From Desulfovibrio sp. (lineage in GTDB: Bacteria; Bacillota; Dethiobacteria; DTU022; UBA8154): a DNA stretch of 47,773 bases. A program made the translations under genes and the position numbers. Location: positions 1 to 47,773 of the forward strand of contig JAGVAS010000147.1 in NCBI GenBank assembly GCA_020060185.1, given 5' to 3'. The notes under the pieces were generated by a model. That model searched no databases. It saw only the letters and a program-made list of their open reading frames with translations, and was not told the origin of the DNA. This document shows, in pieces, positions 2,225 to 47,497 of this stretch; positions within the stretch are counted from its first letter, which is position 1, and each line of letters starts with the position of its first letter.

Positions 2225-3007
2225 TTGGGCTTAATGAACATTGAGTATCTTGTTAAGCTATTGGAAGATTATAAAAATAACATAAAACCGCTGGATAATG
2301 TTCTTAAAGAATTAAAAAAACTACCCTATGAAGACCTGGAATTTGCCAAAGTCGATCACCACCGGGCACTGAGGCAGGGTTTTCCGGAAGTAATATTTTG
2401 CCAGGGTAAAACCATTGAACAAGTAGTAAAAATATTCCAAAACTTAGCTTCGTGCAATTACAATATCCTGGGAACCAGGGCCTCCCGGGATGCTTTTGAA
2501 GCTATACGGCCTTTGTATCCAGCGGCAAAATTTCACGAAATGGCCAGGATCATCAGCCTTATTACTAAAGAGGTCAAAAAGACTTCCCGCAAAATCCTGG
2601 TAATTTCAGCCGGGACTGCCGATATCCCGGTAGCGGAAGAGGCTGCTGTAACAGCCGAAGTTATGGGCCATAATGTGGAAAGGATTTATGATGCCGGGGT
2701 TGCGGGAATACACAGGCTTCTGGCCCACTACGAAAACCTGCATTCCGCAGCGGTAATTATTGTTGTGGCAGGGATGGAAGGGGCCTTGCCCGGCGTAGTG
2801 GGGGGGCTTGTGGATGTGCCGGTTATCGCCGTGCCTACCAGTATAGGGTACGGTGCTAACTTTAACGGGTTATCGGCCTTGCTGACCATGTTGAACAGCT
2901 GTGCCAGCGGAATCGGAGTTGTTAATATTGACAACGGATTTGGTGCGGCTGCCCTGGCAGATGCTATTATCCGCAGCGGTTTAAGAGAAAAGGAGGCAGG
3001 CAGTTGA
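2225..3007 (+). CDS. larB: LarB: pyridinium-3,5-biscarboxylic acid mononucleotide synthase
   Basis: LarB starts nickel-pincer nucleotide synthesis: it carboxylates nicotinic acid adenine dinucleotide and releases AMP, giving the biscarboxylated pyridinium mononucleotide. The C-terminal half resembles PurE (AIR carboxylase), with 'ISAGTADIPVAEEA', 'DAGVAGIHRLL', 'VAGMEGALPGVVGG' and 'VPTSIGYG' in the usual order, and the 260 aa length is normal. TTG at 2225 is preferred over ATG 2234 because the GGGGG ribosome site is about 6 nt upstream. The stop overlaps the larE start by 4 nt (TTGA), so the two are translationally coupled. The family is known from the lactate racemase cofactor system; neither larA nor larC is in the window. 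Confidence 0.9.
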   Translation: MGLMNIEYLVKLLEDYKNNIKPLDNVLKELKKLPYEDLEFAKVDHHRALRQGFPEVIFCQGKTIEQVVKIFQNLASCNYNILGTRASRDAFEAIRPLYPAAKFHEMARIISLITKEVKKTSRKILVISAGTADIPVAEEAAVTAEVMGHNVERIYDAGVAGIHRLLAHYENLHSAAVIIVVAGMEGALPGVVGGLVDVPVIAVPTSIGYGANFNGLSALLTMLNSCASGIGVVNIDNGFGAAALADAIIRSGLREKEAGS

Positions 3008-3825
3008 CGGACAGAAAGGAGAAAATGTTAAAACTCAGGGAATTACTGGCCGGTTGCGGAGGAGCTGTGATCGCTTACTCCGGTGGAGTAGACAGTACTT
3101 TTTTGGCCAGGGTGGCCCATGAAGTGCTGGGAGAACGGGTTCTGGCGGTAACGGCATTTTCAGAAACCTACCCGGACCATGAACAAAAAGCAGCCCTGGA
3201 GACGGCCCAACAGCTGGGGCTGCCACACCTGACCATTTATACGGATGAACTGGCAAATGAACAATTTGCAGCCAACCCGCCTGAACGTTGTTATTTTTGC
3301 AAGAAAGAATTATTCGGCAAGCTCCTGGATATTGCAAGGAAACATGGGCTTGCCTGTGTACTGGATGGGGCGAATTATGATGATCAATTCGATTTCCGCC
3401 CTGGTATGCAGGCTGCCCGGGAACTGGGGATAAGGAGCCCTTTAAAAGAAGCCGGGCTTACCAAAGAAGATATCCGGGAACTTTCCAGGGAAATGGGCCT
3501 TCCTACGTGGGATAAACCTTCTTTGGCCTGCCTGTCCTCTCGTTTTCCCTACGGGGAGCGTATAACCAGGGAAAAGTTAAGCAGGGTAAGAGAGGCGGAG
3601 GATTACCTTCGCTCCACTGGTATAAATGTATTAAGGGTAAGACACCACGGAAATATAGCCCGCATTGAGGTAACTTATGATGATTTTCCCAGGATAATAG
3701 GCGCAGCTGGTAAAATTGTAGAACAGCTGAAAGCATTTGGTTATAACTATGTAACCCTGGATCTCCAGGGTTTCCGTTCAGGAAGTATGAATGAGGTTTT
3801 AGATGTAACTTCAGCAGAATCGTGA
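3004..3825 (+). CDS. larE: LarE: ATP-dependent sulfur transferase for the nickel-pincer cofactor
   Basis: LarE adenylates the LarB product and inserts sulfur to make the bisthiocarboxylate that later binds nickel. The PP-loop 'SGGVDS' is at residues 26-31, followed by the LarE-typical 'SSRFPYGERIT' and C-terminal 'LDLQGFRSGSMN'. Cysteines are present at 96 and 99 (in 'RCYFCKK') as well as 176 (in 'LACLSS'). Cys176 corresponds to the sacrificial cysteine of the Lactobacillus enzyme. The added CxxC suggests the class that carries a [4Fe-4S] cluster and can turn over, which is an inference from family knowledge. TTG start at 3004 overlaps the larB stop, with AAGGAGG upstream. Confidence 0.9.
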   Translation: MTDRKEKMLKLRELLAGCGGAVIAYSGGVDSTFLARVAHEVLGERVLAVTAFSETYPDHEQKAALETAQQLGLPHLTIYTDELANEQFAANPPERCYFCKKELFGKLLDIARKHGLACVLDGANYDDQFDFRPGMQAARELGIRSPLKEAGLTKEDIRELSREMGLPTWDKPSLACLSSRFPYGERITREKLSRVREAEDYLRSTGINVLRVRHHGNIARIEVTYDDFPRIIGAAGKIVEQLKAFGYNYVTLDLQGFRSGSMNEVLDVTSAES

Positions 3826-3991: not shown

Positions 3992-4020
3992 TTTTTGTAG
4001 TTCAAGTATGGTTAATAACA

Positions 4021-4301
4021 GTGAACGAGACTAGTAGCCCTCAAGCGGAGGTCCAGAGAGCCGGGGGAGGTGGAAGCCCGGTCCTAGCGCAGGTGGTGAA
4101 TGGACTCGAGAGTTGCAAAGACGAAAGGTGAAACCTGAGTAGTTTTTGCCGGAGTGAGCACCGTTAGCAGAGCTCAGGGTATCGTCCTCGGAAAGCCTGG
4201 GCCGTACCTGAAGGAGATGCCGGTGACTTTTGTTTTGCCGGCAATTAAGGTGGCACCGCGGAAGCAAGCCTCTCGCCCTTATTTGGGCAAGAGGCTTTTT
4301 A
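4021..4301 (+). promoter_or_regulatory. T-box riboswitch, Trp specifier
   Basis: Stem I carries the usual AGAGAGCC...GGTGGAAGCCC distal elements (about 4055-4080), and the specifier loop reads GAA-TGG-AC with TGG at 4101-4103, the tryptophan codon. The T-box core AAGGTGGCACCGCGGAAGC is at 4247-4265. Its TGGC would pair with a tRNA ending GCCA, and bacterial tRNA-Trp has G as discriminator base, so the two sites agree. Uncharged tRNA-Trp should stabilise the antiterminator and let transcription enter the trp genes downstream. Confidence 0.93.
4266..4300 (+). terminator. Terminator of the first Trp T-box
   Basis: AAGCCTCTCGCCC (4266-4278) pairs with GGGCAAGAGGCTT (4285-4297), with one C-A mismatch, and a T-run follows. 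Its left side competes with the T-box antiterminator. Confidence 0.88.
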
Positions 4302-4442: not shown

Positions 4443-5477
4443 ATGAAAGACATTTTACAGAAAATATCCAGAGGGCAAGAGCTGGGCCAATCTGAAATAG
4501 ATGACCTGATCTTTGGTATCAAAGAAGATCGTTTTTCCCAAACACAAATAGCAGGATTTCTGATGGCTCTCCTGATGAAAGGCCCTACAACCGGTGAGAT
4601 AGTCGCTATTGCCAGGGCCATGCGGAAAGCCTGTATTCCCATCAGCCCAAGAATTAATGCTGAATTGACCGATACCTGTGGGACAGGTGGCGGGCTTACC
4701 ACTTACAATGTCAGTAGCGCCAATGCACTGCTTTCAGCTGCCGCCGGCGTTAAGATTGCCAAGCACGGTTCTCGTTCTATTTCCGCTTCTTCGGGAAGCG
4801 CTGACGTTTTGGAAGCGCTGGGAATAGAAGTGGAGTTAGAACCCGGCCAGGCGGAAATGCTTATCGAAGAAGTTGGTTTTTCTTTCCTCTATGCCCCTCT
4901 TTTTCATCCGGTGATGATGAAAGTGTTTGCTCCGGAAAATGACCTGGGCATCAAAACCATTTTCTTTACCATCATCGGCCCCCTCATAAACCCTGCCAAT
5001 GCCAAAAGACATGTTCTCGGTGTTTACCAGCCCCAGCTGGTAGAACAGGTGGCCGAGGTAATAGCAGAGCTGGATTTTACCCATGCCATGGTTATTTACG
5101 GCCTTGATGGGGTTGACGAGATTTCACTTCTGGGAGAAACCAAAATAGCGGAAATTAAAGAAGGAAAGATAAAAAATTATACTATTACCCCGGAAGAATT
5201 TGGTATGAACCGCTGTACCATAGATCAGATCCAGGGGGGAAACCCTGAGTCCAACGCCAGGACTATTCTGGATATATTTAACGGGAAAGAGAAGGGCCCC
5301 AAACGGGATATGCTGCTGCTGAATGCGGGGGCTACGCTGGTGGTTGCAGGTAAGGCTTCTTCTCTGCACGAGGGAATAGCACAGGCTCAGGAGACTTTGG
5401 ATTCCGGTCAAGCTATGGCCAAGCTCATGGAGATTCGCAGTAGATCCCGGGAATTAAAGGGGGTAAGCGTGGGTTGA
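4443..5477 (+). CDS. trpD: Divergent anthranilate phosphoribosyltransferase (TrpD paralogue)
   Basis: By family this transfers phosphoribosyl from PRPP to anthranilate. The 344 aa protein has the TrpD fold order: N-terminal helices, glycine loop, 'GSADVLEALG', the Mg-binding 'GVDEI' and C-terminal 'LLNAGATL'. Several usually invariant motifs are altered. The PRPP loop GTGGDG is GTGGGL (80-85), KHGNR is KHGSR (107-111), and the anthranilate-side segment, usually with arginines and 'RTIFNxLGP', reads 'ENDLGIKTIFFTIIGP'. The canonical copy at 23255 keeps all of these. ATG 4443 has GGGAG upstream and is coupled to the leader ORF; the end overlaps the next gene by 4 nt. Altered specificity, lowered activity or a regulatory role are all possible. 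Confidence 0.8.
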   Translation: MKDILQKISRGQELGQSEIDDLIFGIKEDRFSQTQIAGFLMALLMKGPTTGEIVAIARAMRKACIPISPRINAELTDTCGTGGGLTTYNVSSANALLSAAAGVKIAKHGSRSISASSGSADVLEALGIEVELEPGQAEMLIEEVGFSFLYAPLFHPVMMKVFAPENDLGIKTIFFTIIGPLINPANAKRHVLGVYQPQLVEQVAEVIAELDFTHAMVIYGLDGVDEISLLGETKIAEIKEGKIKNYTITPEEFGMNRCTIDQIQGGNPESNARTILDIFNGKEKGPKRDMLLLNAGATLVVAGKASSLHEGIAQAQETLDSGQAMAKLMEIRSRSRELKGVSVG

Positions 5478-6223
5478 ACCTGCCGGAGTCTATAAGGCTT
5501 GCTCGATCCAGGGGGGTAGTCCCCATTGTTGCCGAGATAAAAAGGTTAATTCCCAAACTGGCAGCCGAGTATGGCCGGCCCCGCGATGAGCGGGAGGCCG
5601 GCCAGCTGGCCAGTTTGTACCAAACAGGTGGAGCTGCCGGGATTTCCCTTGTTACGGAACAGCAGCATTTTGGTGGAGAGCCCGAAAAAGACGTTCCTGC
5701 AGTCCTGCAGGCCACCTCTTTGCCCTTGCTTATCAAGGATTTTATCCTGGATTCCGCCAGGGTAGACTTTTATGCAGGGATTCTTGGAGGAATTGACCCC
5801 AGTTTTACCCGGAGGGCAACCTTGCTTCTTCATGCCCATATGCTTGGCGAGCAGCTCCCTGCCATGCTGGGGTACGTTTATTCCTGCGGGATGCACGCTC
5901 TCATTGAAACAAGGGGACCGCAAGATCTCCATTACCTGAGCAGGCTGGGTAGAAGAGCGCTAATGGTTGGCATAAATAACAAAAATATTGACGAGCTGGA
6001 AATGGGGAAAGATCAGGTACGCATAACTCCGGAGATTATCGCCGGCTACCGTGAGATGATAGGAGATGCTGTCATAATAAGCCAGAGCGCCCACCGGAGC
6101 ACGGCGGATATACGGCGTTCAATAGAGGCTGGAGCTGATGCGGTGCTGGTCGGTACCGCCTTAATGCTCTCCCGGGATCCTGCCGGGACGGTTTCCTCTT
6201 TTGTGCGGGCCGGAGGGGGTTAA
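5474..6223 (+). CDS. trpC: Divergent indole-3-glycerol phosphate synthase-like protein (TrpC paralogue)
   Basis: A TIM-barrel protein of 249 aa that lacks the N-terminal extension of normal IGPS (about 45 residues before 'AEIK'). It keeps E21 and K23 in 'VAEIK', K88 in 'LIKDF', E145 in 'LIETRG' and the 'GINN' motif (166-169). However, the invariant 'SPS' after AEIK is gone (RLIPKL), and the late catalytic glutamate in 'SESGI' is glutamine (Q204, 'SQSAH'). The normal copy at 24297 has 'AEIKKASPS' and 'SESGI'. TTG 5474 overlaps the trpD-like stop (TTGA) with GGGGG upstream. It may be a slow or re-purposed IGPS, or an inactive partner; the operon position next to trpF-like and trpBA supports a role on the Trp route. 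Confidence 0.7.
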   Translation: MNLPESIRLARSRGVVPIVAEIKRLIPKLAAEYGRPRDEREAGQLASLYQTGGAAGISLVTEQQHFGGEPEKDVPAVLQATSLPLLIKDFILDSARVDFYAGILGGIDPSFTRRATLLLHAHMLGEQLPAMLGYVYSCGMHALIETRGPQDLHYLSRLGRRALMVGINNKNIDELEMGKDQVRITPEIIAGYREMIGDAVIISQSAHRSTADIRRSIEAGADAVLVGTALMLSRDPAGTVSSFVRAGGG

Positions 6224-6224
6224 A

Positions 6225-6893
6225 ATGACCAGGGTGATGCTTTGTGGCAGCAGAAATGCTGGAGATATTCGCTTGATGGTGGAGGAGGGGGCCGATGCTA
6301 TCGGATTGATTACTGAGGTGAGGCAGGAAATCTCCTGCCGGCTTTCCCTTAAAGAGGCCCGGCATCTCTGTACCCTTATTCCACCTATGATATCCGGGAT
6401 CCTTATTCTTACCGAGGAACGGGAAGAAGAGGTATACCGAATGGTAAGATACGTTTGTCCCGATGCGGTGCAGCTGCATGGATTCAATACCCCTGAGGAT
6501 GTTGCTTTTCTGAGGAGGAAACTTAATAGCAAGATTATCAAAACCCTTCATTTCCAGGATGGTTGTATGGCAGAAGGAGGCAATCCTGAAGGCGTTGCCC
6601 TGGAGTACTTAAAAGCCGGGGCAGATGCTATCTTGCTGGACACTTACGGTGAAAGCAAATATGGATCGACCGGCAGGACCTTTGACTGGGATACTGCACG
6701 CCGTATAAGGGACGTGCTCTGGCCCAGGCCTCTTATTCTTGCCGGTGGTTTACATGTGGATAATGTGGCAGTGGCGTTGAGAGCAGTGCAGCCGTATGCA
6801 GTTGATGCCTTTAGTGCCGTCACTTCGGAAGGAAAACTGGATAGGGCAAAGGTACGGGATTTTATGGCAGCGGTAAGGCGATGCCAGCGGTAA
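6225..6893 (+). CDS. trpF: Divergent phosphoribosylanthranilate isomerase (TrpF paralogue)
   Basis: By family this isomerises phosphoribosylanthranilate by Amadori rearrangement. The 222 aa barrel retains the base Cys7 ('LCG') and the acid Asp in 'ILLDTYGES', plus 'VQLHG', 'TFDWD' and '[10 protein letters not shown]'. Departures from the norm are loss of the basic residue in K(I/V)CG (here MLCG), a changed 'SSPRxV' loop, GGTG to GSTG, and the phosphate-binding 'VDVSSGVE' changed to '[11 protein letters not shown]'. The copy at 25087 is canonical in all of these. ATG 6225 is chosen over an in-frame start at 6201 because GGAGGGGG lies 8-12 nt upstream and it begins 2 nt past the trpC-like stop. 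It is likely to act with the two genes before it. Confidence 0.72.
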
Positions 6894-6937
6894 TGGGGAA
6901 GTTTTTTCAAAACAGCAAAAGACAGGAGTGCATGCGC

Positions 6938-8125
6938 ATGGTACCGGATGAACGGGGTTATTTTGGAGAATTTGGCGGACGGTTTGTCCCCGAAGTGTTA
7001 ATTCCCGCCCTGGAAGAACTTACGGAGGCGTACCGGTGGGCCAAAGAAGATCCCGCCTTTCAGGAAGAACTTCACTGCTTATCAAGGTTCTGGTCGGGAC
7101 GCCCCACACCTCTTTATGAGGCGAAGCGCCTTAGCGAACTGCGGGGAGGCGCCCGCATTTACCTGAAACGGGAAGATCTTTTGCATACAGGAGCGCACAA
7201 GATCAACAATGCTTTAGGACAGGGGCTGCTGGCCAAAAAGATAGGGAAAAAACGCCTGGTGGCCGAAACAGGGGCTGGACAGCACGGTGTGGCTGTTGCC
7301 GCAGCCTCTGCCCTGCTGGGACTGCAATGTGTTGTTTATATGGGGGAAGAGGATGTTTACAGGCAGGCTCCCAACGTCAATCGCATGCAGCTTCTGGGGG
7401 CGGAAGTAAAAGCTGTTACCAGCGGAAGCAAAACCCTCAAAGATGCAATTAATGAAGCTATCCGCGACTGGGTGACTAATGTAAAGAGCACTTACTACCT
7501 GTTGGGTTCAGCTGTGGGACCGCATCCCTATCCCTTGATGGTACGGGAGTTCCAGGCAGTTATCGGGAGAGAAGCAAGGGAGCAGGTGCTGGCGTTAAGG
7601 GGCGCTTTGCCCGATTATGTTATAGCCTGTGTAGGCGGAGGTTCCAATGCGATAGGGATATTTTATCCTTTTTTAAACGATGTTCAGGTCAAGCTGGTAG
7701 GTGTGGAGGCGGGTGGCCAGGGGCTTGATAGCGGTAAACACGCTGCTTCCCTGGCGGCAGGAAAAGTTGGGGTGCTGCACGGGGCAAAGTCTTTTGTATT
7801 GCAGAATAAGGCCGGTCAGATTCAAGCCACTCACAGTATTTCCGCCGGACTGGATTACCCCGGCGTAGGCCCGGAACACAGTTATCTGAAAAATACCGGC
7901 CGTGCTCAATACGTGGTTGTGGAGGACAGTCAGGCTCTTCAGGCTTTCATGCTTCTCAGCAACACGGAGGGGATTATACCAGCTCTGGAGCCTGCTCATG
8001 CCATCGCTTATGCCCTTAACCTGGCCGGCTCCCTGGAGCAGGATCAGGCCATTGTCGTTAATCTCTCCGGCCGTGGAGACAAGGATATGGAGATCGTGAG
8101 CAAAATGCTGGAGGTGAAGCAATGA
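6938..8125 (+). CDS. trpB: Tryptophan synthase beta chain
   Basis: PLP enzyme that condenses indole with serine. 'GRPTPLYEA', the PLP lysine in 'HKINN', the catalytic glutamate in 'AETGAGQHG', the phosphate-binding 'GGGSNA' and '[14 protein letters not shown]' are all intact, so this looks fully active. ATG 6938 is preferred: AGGAG at 6924-6928 lies 9 nt upstream and the protein then begins [16 protein letters not shown] as in other TrpB1 proteins; the longer ORF from 6881 overlaps trpF. Length 395 aa is normal. Its stop overlaps trpA (ATGA). This is the only trpB in the window, so the trpEGDCF operon must rely on it. Confidence 0.96.
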
Positions 8126-8973: not shown

Positions 8974-9810
8974 TCACAAAAATGTTTGCCCGGCAAGGGG
9001 GTAGCTTCCTAGTATTTTTAAGAATAAAACTTTTTCTTTTATCTCCTTCAGTGCACGGGCAACTTTTGTATCTTTCCGGTGCCCTTCAACGTCCAGGAAA
9101 AATTTATATTTTCCCAGGTCGCCACGAACAGGGCGGGATTCTATTTTTGTGAGGTTAAGTTTATAGCGGGCAAAAATGCCAAGGGCCGAATATAAGCTTC
9201 CCGGCCTGTCATGCAACCCAATTAGTAAAGATGTTTTATCATTCCCCGTCCAGGGGGCGTCAGCCAGGGCGAGGAGCAGAAAACGGGTGATATTAGAGGG
9301 CTCATCCTGGATGTTCTCCTGGAGCACCTCCAGGCCGTAAAGCCAGGCAGCACGCCGGGAGGCAATAACGGCCTTTCCTTCGTTCTGGCTCGCCAGCGCA
9401 ACAGCTTCTGCAGTGCTGGCCATACTGATACGGGATGCTTCCGGGATGATTCTATCTAAATAGATACGGCACTGGGCCAGGGCCTGGGGATGGGAATAGA
9501 CCTCCTTGATCTTTGCAATTTCCTGTCCGGGGCGGGCAAGCAGGCAATGCTGTACTCTTAAGAGCAGCTCACCCTTTATCTTCACCGGGCTGTTTTTGGA
9601 TAAAAGGTCAAGGGTCAGGTTTACGGTTCCCTCCAGGGAGTTTTCCACCGGGACCACCCCCTGAACAACCTCTTTTTTTTCCACCGCAGTGAAAATCCGG
9701 TCCATAGTGGGGTAGGGTTTTGGCCGTAAAGATTGGCTGGTGCAATATCTTACCGCTAATTCCTCGCTAAAAGTTCCCGGCGGCCCCAGGTAGCCCAGCA
9801 AGTTTCTCAT
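8974..9810 (-). CDS. pheA: Prephenate dehydratase with ACT domain
   Basis: Converts prephenate to phenylpyruvate for phenylalanine. 'YLGPPGTFSEEL' opens the catalytic domain, 'PVENSLEGTV' and the catalytic Thr in 'NITRF' follow, and the C-terminal ACT domain has 'GLHDRPGSLYSAL' and 'ESRP', the phenylalanine-binding motifs. No chorismate mutase domain is fused; a separate aroH is at 34791. ATG 9810 has AAAGGAGG 8 nt upstream. It lies 45 bp downstream of the DAHP synthase gene under the Phe T-box, so it should be controlled both by tRNA-Phe charging and by allosteric Phe inhibition. Confidence 0.95.
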   Translation of the reverse strand: MRNLLGYLGPPGTFSEELAVRYCTSQSLRPKPYPTMDRIFTAVEKKEVVQGVVPVENSLEGTVNLTLDLLSKNSPVKIKGELLLRVQHCLLARPGQEIAKIKEVYSHPQALAQCRIYLDRIIPEASRISMASTAEAVALASQNEGKAVIASRRAAWLYGLEVLQENIQDEPSNITRFLLLALADAPWTGNDKTSLLIGLHDRPGSLYSALGIFARYKLNLTKIESRPVRGDLGKYKFFLDVEGHRKDTKVARALKEIKEKVLFLKILGSYPLAGQTFL

Positions 9811-9855
9811 TCTTGTAACCTCCTTTCCTATGTACTTTTTAGGAAAGAAAAGAAT

Positions 9856-10923
9856 TTAGCTGCATACATGGACGAAGCAATCTGGTAAAGAGCTATTTGC
9901 CTGTTCCTGTAAGGTACGTCCACAGGCTGCTGCGATGCTTTGCAGTGATTTCATTAACAGGCAAAAATCCTTGATAGTTAGAGATTGATCGCCGTCGCAG
10001 TAAGCTTTTTGCGGTTCCGGGTGAACCTCTATTAAAAGGCCGTCGGCACCAGAGGCAATGGCAGCCCTGGAGAGAGCAGGAACCAGCTTGCTGTCTCCGC
10101 TGCTGTGGCTGGGATCCACCATCACGGGAAGGTGGCTCAAACTGTTAACAAGGGGTACGGCGCTGATATCCAGGGTGTTGCGGGTATAATGTTCAAAGGT
10201 GCGAATACCCCTTTCGCAGAGAATAACGTTAAAATTCCCGCCTGCAAGGATATATTCTGCAGACATAAGCCACTCCTCAATGGTTGCCGAAAAACCCCTT
10301 TTTAACAGTACCGGCTGCTTTTGTTTCCCCAGTTTTCTTAACAGGGGATAGTTGTGCATGTTGCGAGCACCTACCTGCAATATGTCAGCGTAAAAAGAAA
10401 CGAGCTCCACATCCTGGGGGGTTATCACCTCGGTAACGACTTTCAGCCCTGTCCTTTTCCTCGCCTCTGCCAGGAGCTTCAGCCCTTCTTCTTCGAGACC
10501 CTGGAAGCTGTAAGGTGATGTCCGGGGTTTAAAGGCTCCACCGCGCAGGATTTTTGCACCGGCTTCAGCAACTTTCTCGGCAATATTAAACAGCATTTCT
10601 TCATTCTCAACAGCGCAGGGGCCGGCCATTACAATGACTTCTTCACCCCCGATGGTTATTCCATTCCCCAGATCGACGATGCTTTTTTCTTTCTTAACTT
10701 CCCTGCTCACCAGTTTATAGGGGGTCTTTAATGGTACTACTTTTTCCACTCCTGGCAGCAGCAACAGGTTGGTTGACCCCTCGTGGTTTTTCCCGCCTGT
10801 GGCGTCGATAAGAATTTTTCCTGCACTTTTGATGATATGGCTGTGGTAACCCATATCTGTTATCTGTTTTTTTACCTTTTCGATTTCTTTCTCGGTAGCT
10901 TCCTGATTCATTACTAGAATCAC
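9856..10923 (-). CDS. aroF: DAHP synthase, type I-beta, under Phe T-box control
   Basis: First enzyme of the shikimate pathway (PEP plus erythrose-4-phosphate). An N-terminal ferredoxin-like regulatory domain (about residues 1-65, 'MILVMNQEATEKEIEK') precedes the barrel, with 'MAGPCAVEN', 'LRGGAFKPRTSPYSFQG', 'QVGARNM', 'LLKRG', 'CERGIRTFE' and 'VDPSHSSG'. GTG 10923 has GGGGAG about 9 nt upstream. At 355 aa it is longer than the paralogue at 16224, with a C-terminal tail ending in FVHVCS that has no obvious counterpart. It is the first gene after the Phe T-box, followed by pheA. Confidence 0.95.
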   Translation of the reverse strand: MILVMNQEATEKEIEKVKKQITDMGYHSHIIKSAGKILIDATGGKNHEGSTNLLLLPGVEKVVPLKTPYKLVSREVKKEKSIVDLGNGITIGGEEVIVMAGPCAVENEEMLFNIAEKVAEAGAKILRGGAFKPRTSPYSFQGLEEEGLKLLAEARKRTGLKVVTEVITPQDVELVSFYADILQVGARNMHNYPLLRKLGKQKQPVLLKRGFSATIEEWLMSAEYILAGGNFNVILCERGIRTFEHYTRNTLDISAVPLVNSLSHLPVMVDPSHSSGDSKLVPALSRAAIASGADGLLIEVHPEPQKAYCDGDQSLTIKDFCLLMKSLQSIAAACGRTLQEQANSSLPDCFVHVCS

Positions 10924-11003
10924 GCAACATCACTCCCCGCATAATTTTTTAAAAAAATAAGGTTTACACTAACAAAGGGACGAAAGTGTAAACCTTGTAA
11001 AAT

Positions 11004-11325
11004 AAAAACTTCCTGTCCAGGGACAGGAAGTTGCTTCCGCGGTACCACCCTAGTTGGCTTTTTGCAAAGCCCACTTTTTCAGGAGCGGGACCTCTTTCGA
11101 GATCCGATTCCTGTTTCGTTGCTAACGGGTGAAAAACCCGGCACAGCTTACTTTTCCCGTATCATCGCTGAAGCGCAAACACGAGGTTTCAGCCTGCAGC
11201 TCCGGAGGGAACTTCGACCGGGTGCTTTTCCGGCAGGGCTTTCAGCCGCGGCCCCACCTCTCTGCAGCAAGCAATACCGGCTTACTTTCCTCTTTCAATG
11301 CTTTTTGCCTGTTTTTAACTTTCTT
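11004..11325 (-). promoter_or_regulatory. T-box riboswitch, Phe specifier
   Basis: On the minus strand, stem I has the AGAGAGGTGGGG...GGCTGAAAGCCC type distal elements. The specifier loop reads GAAG-TTC-CCTCC, placing TTC (phenylalanine) at 11211-11209. The T-box core AGGGTGGTACCGCGGAAGC is at 11051-11033; TGGT would pair with tRNA ending ACCA, as tRNA-Phe does. It controls DAHP synthase and pheA. Confidence 0.92.
11007..11032 (-). terminator. Terminator of the Phe T-box
   Basis: AACTTCCTGTCC and GGACAGGAAGTT form a perfect 12-bp inverted repeat with only 2 nt between, followed on the minus strand by TTTTATTTT. Confidence 0.92.
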
Positions 11326-15604: not shown

Positions 15605-15902
15605 AAAAAATCGATGACGGGGAGAAGTAGGCACGACGATAGGCTGCAGAGAGCCGGGGGATGGTGTGACCCGGTGCCATCAACTGCTGAAATACACCCC
15701 TGAGAAGCAAACCAAAAGCCTTTGCTTTACTTGAGCGGCCAGTAGGCTTTGACGGAAACTCCCACCGTTAAAAGGGAGGGGGTATAATGCTGGAACACAA
15801 CACCAGTCCGTACCCTGAAAAGAGGGGGGCATTTATGTCCAACCAGGGTGGTACCGCGTGAAGATAGAACTTCCGTCCCTATGGGGAGGGAAGTTTTTTT
15901 AG
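15605..15902 (+). promoter_or_regulatory. T-box riboswitch, Tyr specifier, with terminator
   Basis: Stem I has AGAGAGCCGGGG and GGTGTGACCCGG distal elements. The specifier loop CTGAAA-TAC-ACCCCTGAG puts TAC (tyrosine) at 15693-15695. The T-box core AGGGTGGTACCGCG is at 15845-15858, with TGGT matching the A discriminator of tRNA-Tyr. A hairpin at 15868-15895 (AACTTCCGTCCC with GGGGAGGGAAGTT) runs into seven T residues as the terminator. It controls the DAHP synthase-tyrA-aroC-aroB operon. Confidence 0.93.
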
Positions 15903-15904
15903 TA

Positions 15905-16205
15905 TGAAAATGGGGTGACGCAAAGCTGGTGCTCGCTCCAAGTTCAGCTGGAGCCAAGTTCTACAGCTCAGCTCAAGACTCCGATGACTTTCCCAGGAGA
16001 GCTCGCCTCCTACTCGCCTCCTGGCTGCTGGCGTCCATGCCGGCAGGGCCATCTCCAAACTTCGCTTCAACATGAGCTTTTATCTTCGCTGCACAAGTCG
16101 CTCGCTACAACCTTGTGCCACCTGTACGGAACATAGTGCGGATTAGAAGCCATCATTTTCATCCATTGTTGTGGACCGCAGGGCCCTGGCCGTTAGTATT
16201 AAAAA
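15905..16205. other. Unexplained 300-bp spacer between the Tyr T-box and aroF
   Basis: No supported gene on either strand. The segment contains a direct repeat of CTCGCCTCCT (16002-16011 and 16013-16022), many AGCT/CTCG words, and an isolated GTGACGCAAAGCT near 15915 that resembles the core of a c-di-GMP-I riboswitch but lacks the rest. The aroF ribosome site AAAAGGAGG is at its end. The other three T-box operons have much shorter spacers. Confidence 0.4.
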
Positions 16206-16223
16206 TTAAAAGGAGGATGTTTT

Positions 16224-17237
16224 ATGATCGTTGTTATGGATTCCGGTGCCGGTGAAGAGGAAATCGGGGAGGTAGAAAAGAGAATCAAAAGTTTTGGCTA
16301 TGACGTGCACCGTTCCAACGGCGTGAACTGTACTATCCTGGGCGCTATCGGCTACCCCAGGGAAGATGTCAGGGATGCTCTGGAGGTAATGCCTTCCGTG
16401 GAAAAAGTAGTGCTGGTTTCACACCCTTTTATGCTGGTAAGCAGGGAGTTTAAGAAGGATAAGACTGCGTTTAAGGTGGGAGAGGTGGAAATCGGAGGCG
16501 AAAAAATTGTCCTGATGGCCGGGCCGTGTGCAGTAGAAGGAAGGGAATCTTATCTTCAAGCCGCTGAAGCTGTAAAAAAAGGGGGAGCGGATATTTTAAG
16601 AGGAGGGGCATATAAGCCTCGCACTTCTCCTTACAGTTTTCAGGGCCTGGAGGAAGAGGGTTTAAAAATCATGGCAGAGGCCAGGGAAATGACCGGACTT
16701 CCCATCATAACAGAAGTTCTGGACCAGCACTCTATTGAAATTGTGGTCCGCTATGCCGATATCATCCAGGTGGGGACACGCAACATGCAAAACTTTAAAC
16801 TGCTTAGAGAACTGGGACAAATAAATAAGCCCGTTTTGATAAAAAGGGGGATGTCAGCGACGATTGAAGAATGGTTGATGGCAGCAGAGTATCTTCTCAG
16901 CAGCGGAAACTACCAGGTCATCCTCTGTGAAAGGGGAATACGGACGTTTGAAACATATACCCGCTATACCATGGATATCAGTGCTATTCCCATAGTAAAA
17001 GAGTTAAGCCATTTGCCGGTATTTGTAGACCCAAGCCACGGTACCGGGAAGTGGAAATGGGTGCCTTCCATGAGCCTGGCTGCGGTAGCGGCAGGTGCTG
17101 ATGGCCTTCTGGTAGAAGTACACCCCTCCCCCAAGGAGGCGCTTTGTGATGGCCCTCAATCGCTGGTTCCGGAAAAATATTCACAGATGATCGGTTCATT
17201 GAGGGGAGTGGCACAGATAATTGGCCGGACGCTGTAA
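16224..17237 (+). CDS. aroF: DAHP synthase, type I-beta, under Tyr T-box control
   Basis: Paralogue of the enzyme at 9856, with the same architecture: N-terminal regulatory domain 'MIVVMDSGAGEEEIGEV', then 'MAGPCAVEG', 'LRGGAYKPRTSPYSFQG', 'QVGTRNMQNF', 'LIKRG', 'CERGIRTFE' and 'VDPSHGTG'. Length is 337 aa. ATG 16224 follows AAAAGGAGG. tyrA begins inside its 3' end (17 nt overlap). Two DAHP synthases with different tRNA sensors let each end product tune its own share of pathway input. Confidence 0.96.
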   Translation: MIVVMDSGAGEEEIGEVEKRIKSFGYDVHRSNGVNCTILGAIGYPREDVRDALEVMPSVEKVVLVSHPFMLVSREFKKDKTAFKVGEVEIGGEKIVLMAGPCAVEGRESYLQAAEAVKKGGADILRGGAYKPRTSPYSFQGLEEEGLKIMAEAREMTGLPIITEVLDQHSIEIVVRYADIIQVGTRNMQNFKLLRELGQINKPVLIKRGMSATIEEWLMAAEYLLSSGNYQVILCERGIRTFETYTRYTMDISAIPIVKELSHLPVFVDPSHGTGKWKWVPSMSLAAVAAGADGLLVEVHPSPKEALCDGPQSLVPEKYSQMIGSLRGVAQIIGRTL

Positions 17238-18093
17238 ACCTTTGTTTGCAAAATGCTGTATTATAGGGCTGGGTCTCATCGGGGGGTCGGTGGGCATGGC
17301 CCTGGGAAAGTATAAAGTTGTCGAGGAGCGCTGGGGGTACGATGTTAGTCCCCGGGCCATGGTTGAAGCCAGGGAAAGAGGGGCAGTAGATGAAACAGCA
17401 GTCCTGTCCCAAGCCCTGCAGGATGCCGAGCTGGTCATCCTTTCCATGCCCGTGGGGCAGATCCTCAAAGTACTGGAGGAAATATCTCCCTTTCTTCAAA
17501 AAGGCGCCCTGGTAACCGATGTGGGGAGCACTAAAAAACAGATTGTTAAGGCCATGGAAAGTTTATTGTTCCCAGGGGTAACGGGCATTGGCGGTCATCC
17601 TATAGCCGGGTCAGAACAGGCAGGAATTGCGGCAGCAGATCCCTTGCTGCTGGAGAATGCCATTTATCTATTAACTCCCACGAGGCAAACACCAAAACCG
17701 GCACTGGAAAAGATGGAGAAAGTTATCCGGGCTATCAGGGCGTGCCCTCTCATGTTAGGGCCGGAGGAACATGACAGGCTTGTAGCCCTGGTCAGCCACC
17801 TTCCCCAGCTGGTTGCTGTTGCCCTCGTCAATGCTTTAAGAAGTTGCGGCCATGAGCGGGAACTGCTTCTTACTCTGGCAGGGAGAGGCTTTAAAGACAC
17901 AACCCGCATTGCCATGGGGGAGCCTTCCATGTGGTATGATATCTTTACAACAAATAAAGTTTTTTTAAAGGATTCCCTGAAAATTTTTCTGGAGGAATTG
18001 CATTTGCTGGCCGGCTATCTGGAGCAAGAAAACGAAGGAGAAGCGGTAAGGATCTTAGAAAATGCCGGGTTTTTGCGGCGTGCCCTTCATTAA
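17221..18093 (+). CDS. tyrA: Prephenate dehydrogenase
   Basis: NAD(P)-dependent oxidative decarboxylation of prephenate to 4-hydroxyphenylpyruvate. The Rossmann motif 'GLGLIGGS' is at residues 16-23, followed by 'DVGSTK', the catalytic 'GGHPIAGSE' and '[13 protein letters not shown]'. The 290 aa protein has no ACT domain. TTG 17221 overlaps the end of aroF, with GGGGAG a rather long 13 nt upstream; TTG 17242 is a possible alternative. The 3' end abuts an aroA remnant, and the sequence may have lost material at this junction. Confidence 0.93.
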
Positions 18094-20703: not shown

Positions 20704-20724
20704 TCATTCCAATTAAAGAAGTAA

Positions 20725-21055
20725 ATCCAATGGTGGGGAAGAGTAAGTAAAGGGGATTTTCACAGAGAGCCGGCAGCTGGTGGGAATCCGGTAAAAGGCT
20801 CCTTTACTGAATGGGCCCCTGAGGAAAGGACCGAACGCTGCAGCTAAAGGCATCCAGTAGGCTCCTGCGGAGAGTCTTACCGTTAAAAGAGACAGGGTAT
20901 TGGAGAAAGAAACCTGTGCGGTAGCGGTATCACCGCTCCCGTAAAATAGGGGACTGAAAGTACCTGGAAGGGGAAACCGTAATTAAATTTTTTTACGGTT
21001 TAACTAAGGTGGCACCGCGGAGAAGCCTTCCGTCCTTAAGACGGAAGGCTTTCCT
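20725..21055 (+). promoter_or_regulatory. T-box riboswitch, Trp specifier, with terminator
   Basis: Distal stem I elements AGAGAGCCGG and GGTGGGAATCCGG are present. The specifier loop CTGAA-TGG-GCCCCTGAG has TGG at 20812-20814. The core AAGGTGGCACCGCGG (21006-21020) carries TGGC, matching the G discriminator of tRNA-Trp. The terminator is AAGCCTTCCGT with ACGGAAGGCTT (21023-21051), followed by TTCC. Unlike the first Trp T-box, only about 50 nt separate it from the first gene and no Trp leader ORF is seen. Confidence 0.93.
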
Positions 21056-21102
21056 AATTATATTAGTTATATTGATTATGGTTGGAAAGCGAGGTGTGGC
21101 AG

Positions 21103-22608
21103 GTGATCAGGCCTGACAGGGAAACATTCAGCCGGCTGGGCGAAAATTATAACATCATACCCTTATTCAAAACAGTTCCAGCCGACCTGGAGACGCCTAT
21201 TTCCCTCTATCTCAAGCTGGCTTCCCCTTGTGGGGAGAGCTTTCTGCTGGAAAGCGGGGAACTGGGGGAAAAAGCCAGGTATTCATTTATCGGAAGTGAA
21301 CCATTTTTAACCCTCTATACCCTGGGCAGTGATACTGTGGTTCAGGGAGAAATTGGAAAACGATGGCGCTCGGAGGGCGACCCCTTAAGCGTCTTGGAAA
21401 ATATATTTAAGGGTCTCAATGTTTACCAGCCGGGGGAACTTTCCGCTTTCTGGGGGGGAGCCGTTGGATATCTCTCCTATGATATGGTGAAGCGGTGGGA
21501 AAAAATTCCCGGCATACAGGAAGAAAGCCGCTGGCCCTCGTGCTACTTTTACTTCCCCCGCAAGGTTTTTATTTATGACCACAGGCAGCATCTCTTAACA
21601 GTTATTTACCTGGCTTCCATAAATGGAAAAAGAGATGACCCGGGAAGAGTTTACGAGAAGGCCTCTAAGGAACTGGAAAGTATTTTACTTAATCTTGGCC
21701 GGAGACAGGGGTACAATAGTGTGGCTTTTTCCCCTGCCGGCGATTGTATGGCTTCTCCGGGGGTTAGCCAGTCGTTTACCAGGGATAGCTTTGTTGCAGC
21801 GGTTAACAGGGCCAAGGAATATATCAGGGCAGGAGACATATTCCAGGTCGTGCTCTCCAGGCGAGCGCAGCAGGAAACCAGAGCCCTTCCGTTTAGTATT
21901 TACCGCGCCCTGCGCAGTTTAAACCCTTCGCCTTACCAGTTTTACCTTTCTTTTCCTCATTTTCAGATGGTAGGTTCCTCACCGGAGATGCTGGTGAGGC
22001 TGGAGAAAGGCCTGGCTTATACCAAGCCCATAGCCGGGACCAGGCCGCGAGGTCAGGACGATAAAAGCGACCTTTCCCTGGCTAGGGAGCTCAGCAAAGA
22101 CGAAAAAGAGAGGGCCGAGCATATGATGCTGGTGGACCTGGGAAGAAATGACCTGGGGAAGGTCTGTTGCTACGGCAGCGTAGAGGTAATCAAGCTCCTG
22201 GAGATAGAATATTTTTCCCATGTTATGCACCTTGTTTCCGAAGTCAGGGGGAAAATCCGCCCGGAATGCAACTTTGCCCATCTTTTACGGGCTGCCTTTC
22301 CCGCGGGAACAGTCTCCGGTGCACCCAAGGTCAGAGCTATGGAGATTATTGCTGAACTTGAACCGCGTCCCCGGGGACCCTATGCCGGTGCCGTCGGCTA
22401 TCTGGGTTTTAACGGGGATATGGACACCTGTATAACGATAAGAACAATAATTATGAATCACGGGCAGGCATATGTTCAGGCTGGAGCAGGAATTGTGGCC
22501 GATTCTGACCCCTACAGGGAGTATGAAGAAACAGAACATAAAATGGCCAGCTCTTTCAAGGCCATAAGCTTGGCAGAGGAGTGGGAAAATGATTTTAATT
22601 ATCGATAA
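21103..22608 (+). CDS. trpE: Anthranilate synthase component I
   Basis: Uses chorismate and ammonia from TrpG to make anthranilate. The 501 aa protein has the Trp feedback motif 'LLES' at about 48-51, and the chorismate-binding domain with 'GDIFQVVLS', 'YLSFPHFQMVGSSPEMLV', 'PIAGTRPRG', 'DLGRNDLGKV' and 'FPAGTVSGAPK'. GTG 21103 is chosen: it gives MIRPDRETF as in other TrpE proteins and GAGGT lies 7 nt upstream; the frame opens earlier at TTG 21082. The 3' end overlaps trpG by 20 nt. An intact LLES motif predicts allosteric inhibition by Trp on top of T-box control. Confidence 0.96.
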   Translation: MIRPDRETFSRLGENYNIIPLFKTVPADLETPISLYLKLASPCGESFLLESGELGEKARYSFIGSEPFLTLYTLGSDTVVQGEIGKRWRSEGDPLSVLENIFKGLNVYQPGELSAFWGGAVGYLSYDMVKRWEKIPGIQEESRWPSCYFYFPRKVFIYDHRQHLLTVIYLASINGKRDDPGRVYEKASKELESILLNLGRRQGYNSVAFSPAGDCMASPGVSQSFTRDSFVAAVNRAKEYIRAGDIFQVVLSRRAQQETRALPFSIYRALRSLNPSPYQFYLSFPHFQMVGSSPEMLVRLEKGLAYTKPIAGTRPRGQDDKSDLSLARELSKDEKERAEHMMLVDLGRNDLGKVCCYGSVEVIKLLEIEYFSHVMHLVSEVRGKIRPECNFAHLLRAAFPAGTVSGAPKVRAMEIIAELEPRPRGPYAGAVGYLGFNGDMDTCITIRTIIMNHGQAYVQAGAGIVADSDPYREYEETEHKMASSFKAISLAEEWENDFNYR

Positions 22609-23227
22609 TTATGATTCTTTTACCTTTAACCTGGCTCAAGAGCTGGGTTCCATGGGTCTGGAAGTGGAGGTTCGCAGGAATGATGCCTTTACCCTGGAGG
22701 AGCTGGGACAGATGCCCTTGCAAGCTGTCGTTATCTCGCCGGGCCCGGGAGAGCCCGGTTCCGCCGGGTTGAGCTTGAAAGCGGTAGGTTTTTTAAAAAG
22801 CCGGCTTCCCATTTTGGGCATATGCCTGGGCCACCAGGTTATCGGGGCTTACTTCGGTGCCAGGGTTGTCAGGGCTTCTCGCCTTATGCATGGCAAAACC
22901 TCTTTTATTCACCATAACGGTGACAGCATGTTTAAGGGGGTAGATTCACCCTTCGAAGCCATGCGCTATCATTCTCTTCTAGTGGCCAGAGAATTTTTGC
23001 CTCCCTCCCTGGAAGTTATCGCTGCAACGGAGGAGGGGGAAATTATGGCTATCCGGCATAAATTTTATCGCAACCTGGTAGGGTTACAGTTTCACCCGGA
23101 GTCCCTGTTTACTCCCCCTGGGCGTATGATCCTGGCTAATTTTTGCCAGCTTTCCGGCCTTTTGGCCGCTGGAGAGAACCTGGAGAATAAAATGAAAAAA
23201 CAAGAATTTTTATCTTCTAGGAGGTGA
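22589..23227 (+). CDS. trpG: Anthranilate synthase component II (glutamine amidotransferase)
   Basis: Class I glutaminase that feeds ammonia to TrpE. The nucleophile Cys79 lies in 'GICLGHQ', and His169 and Glu171 lie in 'LQFHPES'; the oxyanion motif 'SPGPGEP' is at 50-56. Length is 212 aa, with a short charged C-terminal tail. The start is inside trpE with GAGGAG upstream. It may also serve p-aminobenzoate synthesis, as no separate pabA is present here. Confidence 0.95.
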   Translation: MILIIDNYDSFTFNLAQELGSMGLEVEVRRNDAFTLEELGQMPLQAVVISPGPGEPGSAGLSLKAVGFLKSRLPILGICLGHQVIGAYFGARVVRASRLMHGKTSFIHHNGDSMFKGVDSPFEAMRYHSLLVAREFLPPSLEVIAATEEGEIMAIRHKFYRNLVGLQFHPESLFTPPGRMILANFCQLSGLLAAGENLENKMKKQEFLSSRR

Positions 23228-23254: not shown

Positions 23255-24304
23255 ATGATCAAAGATATCCTGGAAAAGTTGATCCGTCACGAAGATTTAA
23301 CCTGTGAAGAGGCCTACCAGGTCATGGGAAAGATCATGAGAGGTGAATTTAAAGAGGCCCAGGTTGCCGCTTATCTCGTAGCGCTTCGTTGTAAAGGAGA
23401 GACTGTTGATGAAATAATGGGGAGCTGCCAGGCCATTCGCGAGCACAGCATTAAAATTTCCGTTACAAGAACTCCCGTGGTGGATACCTGCGGTACCGGG
23501 GGAGACGGCAAGGGGAGCTTTAACATTTCTACGGTAAGCGCCTTTGTTTCCGCCGGGGCCGGGATAACGGTTGCCAAGCACGGAAACAGGGCTGTTTCCG
23601 GGCAGTGCGGGAGCGCAGACCTCTGTGAAGCTTTGGGTATAAATATGGAGTTGCCTGCTACGGATCTAGAGCTTTGCCTTAATGAAATTGGCCTGGGATT
23701 TTTATATGCACCGTCATTGCACCCGGCTATGGCCCATGCACTCCCGGCGAGAAAAGCCCTGGGGTTGCGGACCATCTTTAATATCCTGGGTCCCTTGAAT
23801 AACCCGGCAGGAGCAAAAAGGCAGGTGCTGGGGATTTACGAGGCAGCGTTGACGGAGAAAATGGCAGCGGTCTTAGCCTCTCTTGGTTCCGAGCATGCCC
23901 TGGTGGTGGCCGGTAGGGATGGTCTGGACGAAATTACACTTACGGCAGAGACTTTAGTTACCGAGGTGAAAAACGGGATATTGCGAAGCTATCTTATTGC
24001 ACCGGAAGATTTTGGTTTTTCCAGGGTTTCGATGGATTCGCTGCTGGGTGGGGATGCTGTAGCAGGCACCCGTTCCTGTTTAGCGATACTGAAGGGGGAA
24101 AAAGGGCCGCAGCGGGATGTGGTTCTACTGAATGCAGGAGCGGCTTTGTACGTTTCTGGACTGGTACAGAGTATCAGGGAAGGCATTGAGCTGGCCAAAA
24201 CCTCTATTGATTCGGGAGCGGCTTACGAAAAACTTCAGTCCCTGGTACAGTTTTCCCGGTGCCGGAAACTGCCTGCTGCAGAAGGGGGAAGAACTTATGC
24301 TTAA
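23255..24304 (+). CDS. trpD: Anthranilate phosphoribosyltransferase, canonical copy
   Basis: The 349 aa protein has every standard TrpD motif: 'DTCGTGGDG' (GTGGDG at 80-85), 'SFNIST', 'KHGNR' (108-112), 'GLRTIFNILGPLNNPAGA' and 'GRDGLDEI'. It is therefore the likely housekeeping enzyme, in contrast to the altered copy at 4443. ATG 23255 is preceded by AGGAGGTGAATACCCGGGG about 15-30 nt upstream, with no closer ribosome site. The 3' end overlaps trpC by 8 nt. Confidence 0.95.
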   Translation: MIKDILEKLIRHEDLTCEEAYQVMGKIMRGEFKEAQVAAYLVALRCKGETVDEIMGSCQAIREHSIKISVTRTPVVDTCGTGGDGKGSFNISTVSAFVSAGAGITVAKHGNRAVSGQCGSADLCEALGINMELPATDLELCLNEIGLGFLYAPSLHPAMAHALPARKALGLRTIFNILGPLNNPAGAKRQVLGIYEAALTEKMAAVLASLGSEHALVVAGRDGLDEITLTAETLVTEVKNGILRSYLIAPEDFGFSRVSMDSLLGGDAVAGTRSCLAILKGEKGPQRDVVLLNAGAALYVSGLVQSIREGIELAKTSIDSGAAYEKLQSLVQFSRCRKLPAAEGGRTYA

Positions 24305-25106
24305 AGAGATCGCCGTCCATAAATGGAGAGAGGTCATCAAGCAGAAAAAAGAATATCCCCTGCAGGAAATAATCAAACAACTGCCTTCGCTCCCTTCTCC
24401 AGGGAACTTTAAGGAGGCGCTTCTCAAGCGTTTTCCGCAGGTTGGTATTATCGCGGAGATTAAAAAAGCCTCCCCCTCTGGCGGGGTGATTGAATCTCAT
24501 TTTACAAGGGATAAAAGCCCGGCGGAAATCGCTCTTTTGTATGAAGAAGGCGGAGCGGTGGCGATATCTGTGCTCACAGAAGCAAGATACTTTGCCGGCT
24601 GCCCCGCAGACCTGCGCAGCGCCAAAAGTGCTGTAAGCATACCTGTTCTCCGCAAGGATTTTATCGTGGATGAGTACCAGATTTATGAATCCAGGGCCAT
24701 GGGGGCAGATGCTGTCCTGCTTATCGCCTCCCTGCTTGCCATTGCGGAGCTGAAAAGATTTTTGCAGCTGCTGGGCGAGCTGGGAATGGCTGCCATAGTG
24801 GAAGCAGGGAAAAAGGAAGATATTCTTAAGGCGGTTCAGGCCGGGGCGGAGGTAATAGGTATCAATAACCGCAACCTCCATACCATGGAAATTGACCTTA
24901 CGAGGACTCTTGAATGGGGTCCTTATGTTCCCCGTGACAGGGTTTTAATTTCGGAGAGCGGCATCTACTGCCGGGAGCAGGTGCAACAGTTAAAAGAGTT
25001 GAGCGGCGTGAATGCTGTCCTTGTTGGTAACAGCCTTATGACCAGCGGCGATCCTGCTGCAAAAATAAGGGAGCTGATGGGCGAAGATGTGCCCTGTGCG
25101 CGTTAA
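24297..25106 (+). CDS. trpC: Indole-3-glycerol phosphate synthase, canonical copy
   Basis: The 269 aa protein keeps the N-terminal extension and the catalytic set: 'IIAEIKKASPSGG', 'VLTEARYFAG', 'VLRKDFIVDEYQI', 'AIVEAG', 'GINNRNLHT' and 'LISESGI'. ATG 24297 overlaps the trpD stop and follows AGAAGGGGGA; the frame stays open upstream to 24132, but that part lies inside trpD. It overlaps trpF by 20 nt. This is the reference against which the altered copy at 5474 can be judged. Confidence 0.95.
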   Translation: MLKEIAVHKWREVIKQKKEYPLQEIIKQLPSLPSPGNFKEALLKRFPQVGIIAEIKKASPSGGVIESHFTRDKSPAEIALLYEEGGAVAISVLTEARYFAGCPADLRSAKSAVSIPVLRKDFIVDEYQIYESRAMGADAVLLIASLLAIAELKRFLQLLGELGMAAIVEAGKKEDILKAVQAGAEVIGINNRNLHTMEIDLTRTLEWGPYVPRDRVLISESGIYCREQVQQLKELSGVNAVLVGNSLMTSGDPAAKIRELMGEDVPCAR

Positions 25107-25782
25107 GGTCTGCGGTATCCGCACTCCCCGGGAGGCCCTGGCAGCCGTGGAAGAAGGTGTTCATGCCCTGGGATTTCTCTTTGCCTCCAGCCCGCGCCAG
25201 GTAACCCCCGAAATAGCCGCAGCTATTATTAAGGAACTGCCTCCTTTTATTGGGAAGGTGGGCGTTTTTGTTAACGAAGAAAGCGGGAAGGTAAAGGAGA
25301 TTGCCGCTTATTGCGGGCTGGACACCCTGCAGTTTCACGGCGAGGAGACAGCGGCGTATTGCTGCCAGTTTCCCGCTTATAAGGTTATCAAAGCTTTTCC
25401 TGCCTCTCCCTCTTTATCCATGGAAAGGTGCCGGGAATACCGGGTCAGTGCTATTTTGCTGGATACTAAATATGCAGGTAAGAAGGGCGGAGGAGGCCTG
25501 GCCTTCGATTGGCGGCTGGCCCAACCTTTTTGTCAAGGGCCTTTTCCTCTCGTACTTGCCGGGGGATTAAATGAGGACAACGTTTTTAATGCTCTTGAAG
25601 TGGTAAAACCTTTCGGGGTCGATGTGAGCAGCGGTGTGGAAAGAAATGGCTTTAAAGATCAAAAAAGAATAAGGGCCCTTATGGAACAAATTAAGAGGTG
25701 GGAATACCAGCATTTATTTTGTTATAATAAAAGAGTGACCCGTGTGTCAGGTAGTCTAGAGCCGGAGAAAACTCATTTCTAA
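25087..25782 (+). CDS. trpF: Phosphoribosylanthranilate isomerase, canonical copy
   Basis: 'VKVCGIRTPREAL' with the catalytic Cys, 'ASSPRQVTPE', 'LQFHGEE', 'ILLDTKYAGKKGGGG', 'AFDW', 'LAGGLNEDNV' and 'GVDVSSGVE' are all standard. The 231 aa protein runs about 20 residues past the usual end. That extra tail spans an A/T-rich stretch that looks like an extended -10 promoter, so the C-terminus may simply have drifted. It is the last trp gene of this operon; trpB and trpA are 17 kb upstream. Confidence 0.94.
   Translation: MCPVRVKVCGIRTPREALAAVEEGVHALGFLFASSPRQVTPEIAAAIIKELPPFIGKVGVFVNEESGKVKEIAAYCGLDTLQFHGEETAAYCCQFPAYKVIKAFPASPSLSMERCREYRVSAILLDTKYAGKKGGGGLAFDWRLAQPFCQGPFPLVLAGGLNEDNVFNALEVVKPFGVDVSSGVERNGFKDQKRIRALMEQIKRWEYQHLFCYNKRVTRVSGSLEPEKTHF
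25720..25728 (+). promoter_or_regulatory. Possible internal promoter before aroE
   Basis: An extended -10 (TGTTATAAT) lies inside the 3' end of trpF, about 80 nt before aroE. No good -35 is visible. The same TTGTTATAATAAA-like word precedes aroK at about 26729. Confidence 0.35.
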
Positions 25783-47090: not shown

Positions 47091-47178
47091 TAAACGATAA
47101 AGGCAAAACTACCGAAAGGTAGTGACGCAAAGCTATGGGGCTAATACGAACCATAAGTGCCAGCCAGCTGCCGTTGCA
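47091..47178 (+). promoter_or_regulatory. Cyclic di-GMP-I riboswitch aptamer (GEMM-I)
   Basis: The hallmark blocks are in order: AAAGGCAAA, a stem capped by a GAAA tetraloop (CTACC-GAAA-GGTAG), GTGACGCAAAGC, a second stem with GGGGCTAATACG, and AAGTGCCAGCCAGCTGCCG closing the fold. These fit the c-di-GMP-I consensus closely. It sits in a long 5' leader about 430 nt upstream of the next gene. Confidence 0.93.
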
Positions 47179-47189
47179 TAAATAAAAAT

Positions 47190-47222
47190 GCTCACCTTTG
47201 TCCAACGGCAGGTGGGCTTTAT
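47190..47222 (+). terminator. Expression-platform terminator of the riboswitch
   Basis: GCTCACCT (47190-47197) pairs with AGGTGGGC (47210-47217), followed by TTTATT. CTGCCGTTG at the aptamer's 3' edge (47168-47176) is fully complementary to CAACGGCAG (47203-47211), which overlaps the terminator stem, so the two pairings exclude each other. Ligand binding that holds the aptamer's 3' strand would favour termination. Confidence 0.8.
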
Positions 47223-47350
47223 TAATTTCCAAAAGACTTTATGTTTTCTAAAGTACACTTTGGTGGTAATTGCTATGAGTTACTCTCAAAATTTATTTGT
47301 ATATAATTTTAAAATTAACGAAATATACATGCATTTTGACATAACGAGCT

Positions 47351-47421: not shown

Positions 47422-47497
<76 letters not shown>

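Follow-up and report, generated by a model that had tools for sequence, protein, structure and literature searches.

The window examined here, a stretch of 47,773 nucleotides (contig JAGVAS010000147.1, assembly GCA_020060185.1), carries two full sets of trp genes with intact, overlapping reading frames (Table 1). One is an ordinary trp operon that encodes anthranilate synthase and served as an internal comparison set. The other consists of divergent copies of trpD, trpC and trpF, denoted trpD', trpC' and trpF' and collectively the trio, followed by trpB and trpA. The original prediction of two trpDCF sets, an altered one at 4443-6893 and one with textbook motifs, was thus borne out. Across the full 2.47-Mb assembly, which is 89% complete, searches found two TrpDs, two TrpCs and a single TrpA located in the altered operon, in agreement with the claim that the altered set lies in the only trpBA operon. 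An extra PF00591 match in the assembly, besides the two TrpDs, is a nucleoside phosphorylase.

Table 1. Features of the window and their positions
Feature	Position	Strand	Basis or remark
LarB and LarE genes (nickel-pincer cofactor synthesis)	2234-3825		Directly upstream of the altered operon
T-box leader, altered operon	4012-4283	+	Rfam RF00230, 116 bits; Trp specifier UGG at 4101-4103
trpD' (anthranilate phosphoribosyltransferase family)	4443-5477	+	TIGR01245, 366 bits
trpC' (IGP synthase family), lacking the N-terminal extension	5474-6223	+	PF00218
trpF' (PRA isomerase family)	6225-6893	+	PF00697
trpB, ordinary tryptophan synthase beta	6881-8125	+	TIGR00263, 621 bits; TrpB tree
trpA, ordinary; sole TrpA found in the genome	8122-8910	+	TIGR00262, 257 bits
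Two DAHP synthases	8974-11307 and 15605-18093		Each under its own amino-acid sensor
T-box leader, ordinary trp operon	20721-21040	+	RF00230; Trp specifier UGG
trpE	21082-22608	+	Anthranilate synthase with trpG; PF00425 match
trpG	22589-23227	+	Anthranilate synthase with trpE
Ordinary trpD, trpC and trpF, textbook motifs	23255-25782	+	Pfam scores, alignments; starts at 23255 (trpD), about 24300 (trpC) and 25087 (trpF)
ORF resembling UPF0236-type transposase	37905-39254		Adjoins an MFS transporter gene
c-di-GMP-I-GGC riboswitch	47093-47538		Near the contig end; directly 5' of an ORF ending in a long simple repeat (LSLSLSL)

One DAHP synthase gene and pheA follow a T-box whose specifier is UUC (Phe); the other accompanies tyrA, downstream of a T-box that reads UAC (Tyr). 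The LarB/LarE pair recurs in genome G004 (L167:5577-7549), where a trpB/trpA relic follows it and the altered operon lies elsewhere, indicating that a trpBA operon once stood at that site and has since been lost.

Altered residues in TrpD', TrpC' and TrpF'

TrpD' passes the TrpD family model well above its cut-off of 199 bits, and its confident AlphaFold model (pLDDT 93.4) matches anthranilate phosphoribosyltransferases (AnPRTs) with Foldseek TM scores of 0.85-0.95. In common with known TrpDs (TIGR01245; PDB 1gxb/1zyk, 4n5v and 9ucw), it has the fold (TM about 0.9), GTGG, K106, H107, P178, the DE metal pair (D223 and E224) and its place in the operon. It is unlike them in having Glu for R164 and Ser for N109, in the deletion of D83 and in a one-residue insert in TIFFTIIGPL, and its identity to any ordinary TrpD compared is 46% at most. 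The predicted changes of GTGGDG to GTGG-GL, of KHGNR to KHGSR and of the anthranilate-side Arg all proved real when residues were numbered by ssAnPRT (1gxb, sequence verified at PDB) in an alignment of 12 altered and about 95 ordinary TrpDs. Position 164 is Arg in 95/95 ordinary and Glu in 12/12 altered enzymes, a reversal of charge (E165 in the window, 4935-4937); position 109 is Asn in 94/95 and Ser in 12/12, respectively (S110, 4770-4772). Equating R164 with the Arg of GIRT, which would give Arg to Lys, was wrong, as numbering against 1gxb places R164 in PVRK, with Glu here. In MtuAnPRT, the corresponding R193 and loop Asn N138 grip the carboxylate of anthranilate; substitutions at these residues impair catalysis and raise the Km for anthranilate, and R193 variants lose both catalysis and anthranilate affinity (PMC9835598, a review). 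The Arg and the Asn that hold the anthranilate carboxylate are therefore both missing from TrpD'. D83 is deleted in 12/12 altered TrpDs. The D83G/F149S pair in ssAnPRT was reportedly made as an activated variant. This variant was stable enough to crystallise (PDB 3gbr).

TrpC' falls under every NCBIfam TrpC cut-off (128 bits versus 284 for the best model), and its model, likewise confident (pLDDT 92.2), finds IGP synthases (IGPSs) as its best PDB matches. It has the TIM barrel and the K53, K110, E159 and N180 of known IGPSs (1igs, 3t44 and 2c3z), residues that are kept in all altered TrpCs, and in the window E51 is kept as well. Unlike known IGPSs, TrpC' has no N-terminal lid helix, Lys in place of R182, no SPS motif and, in half of the clade, Gln at E210; in the window these changes are R182 to K170 (5981-5983), E210 to Q204 (6083-6085), S56 to I26 and S58 to K28. 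R182 contacts both the carboxylate and the phosphate of the substrate (PMC7681013); it is Arg in 68/68 ordinary TrpCs, Lys in 10 of the 12 altered ones and Arg in the other two. The N-terminal extension is absent or short in 12/12; in known IGPSs it carries the lid helix, which reduces Km (PMC7681013). The missing extension, the change of SPS to IPK and the late Gln were thus all present as predicted. Reading this Gln as loss of function was rejected, since MtIGPS with Gln at the equivalent position gains about tenfold in activity (PMC10591298), and since its presence in only 6/12 clade members means that it is not a defining change.

TrpF' scores below every NCBIfam TrpF cut-off. It shares with known PRA isomerases (PF00697; 1lbm/1nsj) the catalytic C7 and D126 (6243-6245 and 6639-6641 in the window), kept in all altered TrpFs, and is unlike them in the loss of R36 and in the greater length of the loop that follows strand 2. 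R36 forms a salt bridge to the substrate carboxylate (PMC2667513). This residue is Arg in 34/34 ordinary TrpFs, and Cys or Trp occupies the position in 12/12 altered ones (C38 in the window, 6336-6338). A changed phosphate loop had been proposed for TrpF'; the enzyme is indeed altered, but its clearest change is the loss of this carboxylate-contact Arg rather than the one in the phosphate loop.

A more distant branch, L163 and L164 (genomes G471 and G384), has an identical TrpD' signature, a TrpC with Arg182 and Asp for Glu51, and a TrpF loop that reads PVPWNL.

Throughout the trio, catalytic and PRPP residues are kept except for D83 of TrpD and for E51, which is Asp in two TrpCs. All four carboxylate contacts are among the changed conserved sites, for which random placement on sites taken to be independent gives a chance of 0.002; this joint value comes mostly from TrpD (0.021), with TrpC alone at 0.30 and TrpF alone at 0.32. 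As judged from these alignments, the coordinated change at predicted anthranilate-carboxylate contacts across three enzymes is a new element. The same residues bear on an alternative in which the three enzymes are divergent isozymes that still act on anthranilate, with carboxylate binding re-routed; they would either salvage anthranilate taken up from outside or provide a second module under Trp regulation. Intact folds and catalytic residues are consistent with such isozymes, two of the changes need not disturb normal function (the crystallised D83G/F149S variant and the more active MtIGPS with Gln), and the Arg to Lys change in TrpC preserves the positive charge, which counts against an altered substrate. 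Five of the 12 altered TrpFs have an Arg one residue after the Arg36 position, so the loop could reposition. Against anthranilate as the substrate stands the change of Arg to Glu, without exception, at the very residue that holds its carboxylate.

Distribution and selection

Of the family's roughly 23 genomes, six contain orthologues of TrpC'. Scanning a genome collection with the TrpD' alignment yielded eight loci at 71-88% identity, with none of the next matches above 45%. Among these are loci of Pelotomaculum terephthalicicum JT (L052) and of MAGs that bear the labels Dethiobacter or Syntrophomonadaceae. Sampling 399 genomes of the phylum brought in the further carriers G419, G471 and G384. 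The trio is thereby found in 12 genomes in all, in the order D'C'F' in every one and with trpBA attached in eight; in G384 the gene order is trpBA-trpD'C'F'. A viral origin was rejected, with no relative found among IMG/VR contigs. A plasmid search returned only TrpCs of <60% identity, and those that carried a name were annotated as ordinary.

In their trees, the altered D, C and F sequences each group as a single clade (SH-aLRT 100, 95 and 92, respectively), as expected from the earlier suggestion that the three diverged together. On the evidence of these trees and the constant gene order, the trio is co-inherited and conserved as a clade. Pairwise dN/dS of the trio among G000, G004 and G009 is 0.10-0.24 (NG86) and up to 0.32 (YN00), like that of ordinary genes, which indicates purifying selection. 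A non-catalytic scaffold or a decaying set, both raised by the original prediction, would account for the several broken family motifs. Both are highly improbable given the low dN/dS, the clade-wide retention of catalytic residues, the intact frames in the window and the fact that the trio is the only source of TrpD and TrpF in five genomes. Such conservation suggests that the trio is very probably functional.

Tryptophan control and shared tryptophan synthase

All carriers (12/12) have a predicted tryptophan-sensor leader upstream of the trio, comprising eight T-boxes and four TRAP-like leaders, one of them weak. A Trp (UGG) T-box precedes the trio in 8/8 carriers with trpBA attached; the UGG specifier was identified in seven of these operons, and the call for the eighth, G384, comes from reading plus Rfam. 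The four operons without trpBA (G060, G061, G419 and G471) instead have a terminator preceded by GAG/UAG triplet runs, as in the layout of a TRAP site. Runs of such length were reached by 0, 141, 1 and 0 of 2000 shuffles, respectively, so that the G061 leader is the weak one. Rfam found no leader at L051 and L052, where inspection of the sequence revealed GAG/UAG repeats with a terminator, which were compared with shuffles. The use of two unrelated predicted tryptophan sensors argues that the output of the trio is tryptophan.

The trpBA genes are canonical, as had been claimed, in their model scores and in the TrpB tree, where TrpBs of altered operons (G000, G004 and G009) cluster with TrpBs from G009 and G007 that belong to ordinary operons. 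G000 and G020 each have one TrpA, located in the altered operon, which must serve the ordinary trio too. Truncated trpA relics persist elsewhere in G009 and G004; in G009 (L037:11304-12736), a second trpBA with truncated trpA stands before an ordinary aroF-trpEGDCF, and the intact trpBA is in the altered operon. Because TrpBA is ordinary and shared by both trios, the product of the altered trio is most simply plain indole-glycerol phosphate (IGP), and we regard normal IGP as the probable product.

These results divide the earlier idea of a modified anthranilate giving a substituted indole or tryptophan. The changes do affect the pocket on its aromatic side and point to an altered aromatic substrate. 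They sit, however, at carboxylate contacts rather than ring positions, the operons have no gene making or using a substituted product, TrpBA is shared and ordinary, and the leaders are specific to tryptophan. Conversion of a substituted anthranilate to a substituted product is accordingly improbable.

Carriers with no anthranilate synthase found

In five carriers, the trio occurs INDEPENDENCE from ANTHRANILATE synthase. PF00425 (TrpE/PabB) is absent from the draft genomes G005, G017, G060, G062 and G384, and present in G000, G004, G009, G020, G061, G419 and G471. Four of these TrpE-less genomes are 94% (G005), 96% (G017), 98% (G384) and about 78% (G060) complete. All five also lack ordinary TrpD and TrpF; canonical TrpC was checked by whole-genome search within the family genomes. 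Chorismate synthase and TrpA were present in nine of nine genomes tested, chorismate synthase in 4/4 of the PF00425-less carriers tested, and in G384 trpA is inside the altered operon.

The ordinary trio is kept by 7/7 PF00425-bearing carriers. This association of TrpE with the ordinary trio has a Fisher p of 0.0013 with phylogeny ignored; the 3-5 tree-independent contrasts all have the same direction and are too few to reach significance alone. It is confounded by the frequent location of these genes in one operon, which could account for part of it, but P. terephthalicicum still keeps trpD and trpF, on other contigs than trpE. If the altered enzymes were isozymes for anthranilate, the ordinary trio should be dispensable, yet it is retained in every TrpE carrier, P. 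terephthalicicum included. Anthranilate isozymes would nevertheless suit the Trp-specific control and the operon without an accessory gene, and they have a precedent in Chlamydia, in which trpDCFBA without trpE is fed by anthranilate made by kynureninase (PMC10242142). The Chlamydia caviae-type trpDCFBA-kynU operon resembles the altered operon in its genes, in lacking trpE and in its tryptophan control; it differs in that kynureninase supplies the anthranilate (PMC10242142), whereas no adjoining kynureninase gene was recognised in the altered operon neighbourhoods. Overall, we view anthranilate isozymes as a serious possibility that falls short of even odds.

Discussion

To our knowledge, tryptophan synthesis has been treated as always proceeding via anthranilate. 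The trio may instead be a live second entry branch, induced by tryptophan starvation, that accepts an amine lacking the free ortho-carboxylate of anthranilate; we assign this reading a probability of about 0.5. The balance tips slightly toward an altered substrate, whose identity is the most conjectural part of the proposal, ahead of activity and product. The amine would probably not be anthranilate, and the simplest one to give IGP would be of the aniline type. TrpD' would transfer the phosphoribose of PRPP onto this aromatic amine, TrpF' would carry out the Amadori rearrangement, and TrpC' would close the pyrrole ring, releasing a proton where an ordinary TrpC releases CO2, after which the shared, ordinary TrpBA would complete tryptophan. 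Tryptophan starvation would switch the trio on, and TrpD', through its Glu, would select against anthranilate in cells producing it.

More tentatively, and with less than even odds, the trio may constitute a natural anthranilate-independent route in which an aniline-like amine is converted to ordinary IGP without decarboxylation and passed to TrpBA, in some hosts lacking anthranilate synthase. Such a route has been assembled in vitro (PMC7681013). There, the ordinary AnPRT of A. baylyi takes aniline, isomerisation of its product falls to a HisA mutant, and the IGPS of P. aeruginosa (PaIGPS) slowly turns the decarboxylated substrate into IGP, with an efficiency about 41,000-fold below that for CdRP. 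Both that route and the one proposed here would give IGP without the carboxylate; the former is a laboratory side activity with the 41,000-fold weakness at its IGPS step. Open-access papers yielded no natural aniline or anthranilate-independent tryptophan route, and our analysis identified no source of aniline or another amine.

Conclusions

Three consecutive enzymes have changed at their predicted anthranilate-carboxylate contacts, while residues for catalysis, control by tryptophan and the downstream enzyme are ordinary. The carriers are little-known anaerobic bacteria, some of them without a visible way to make anthranilate. If the substrate truly differs, there would be natural IGP synthases that act with no decarboxylation step, a reaction so far seen solely as a very weak side activity, and genome-based calls of these organisms as tryptophan auxotrophs would be wrong.
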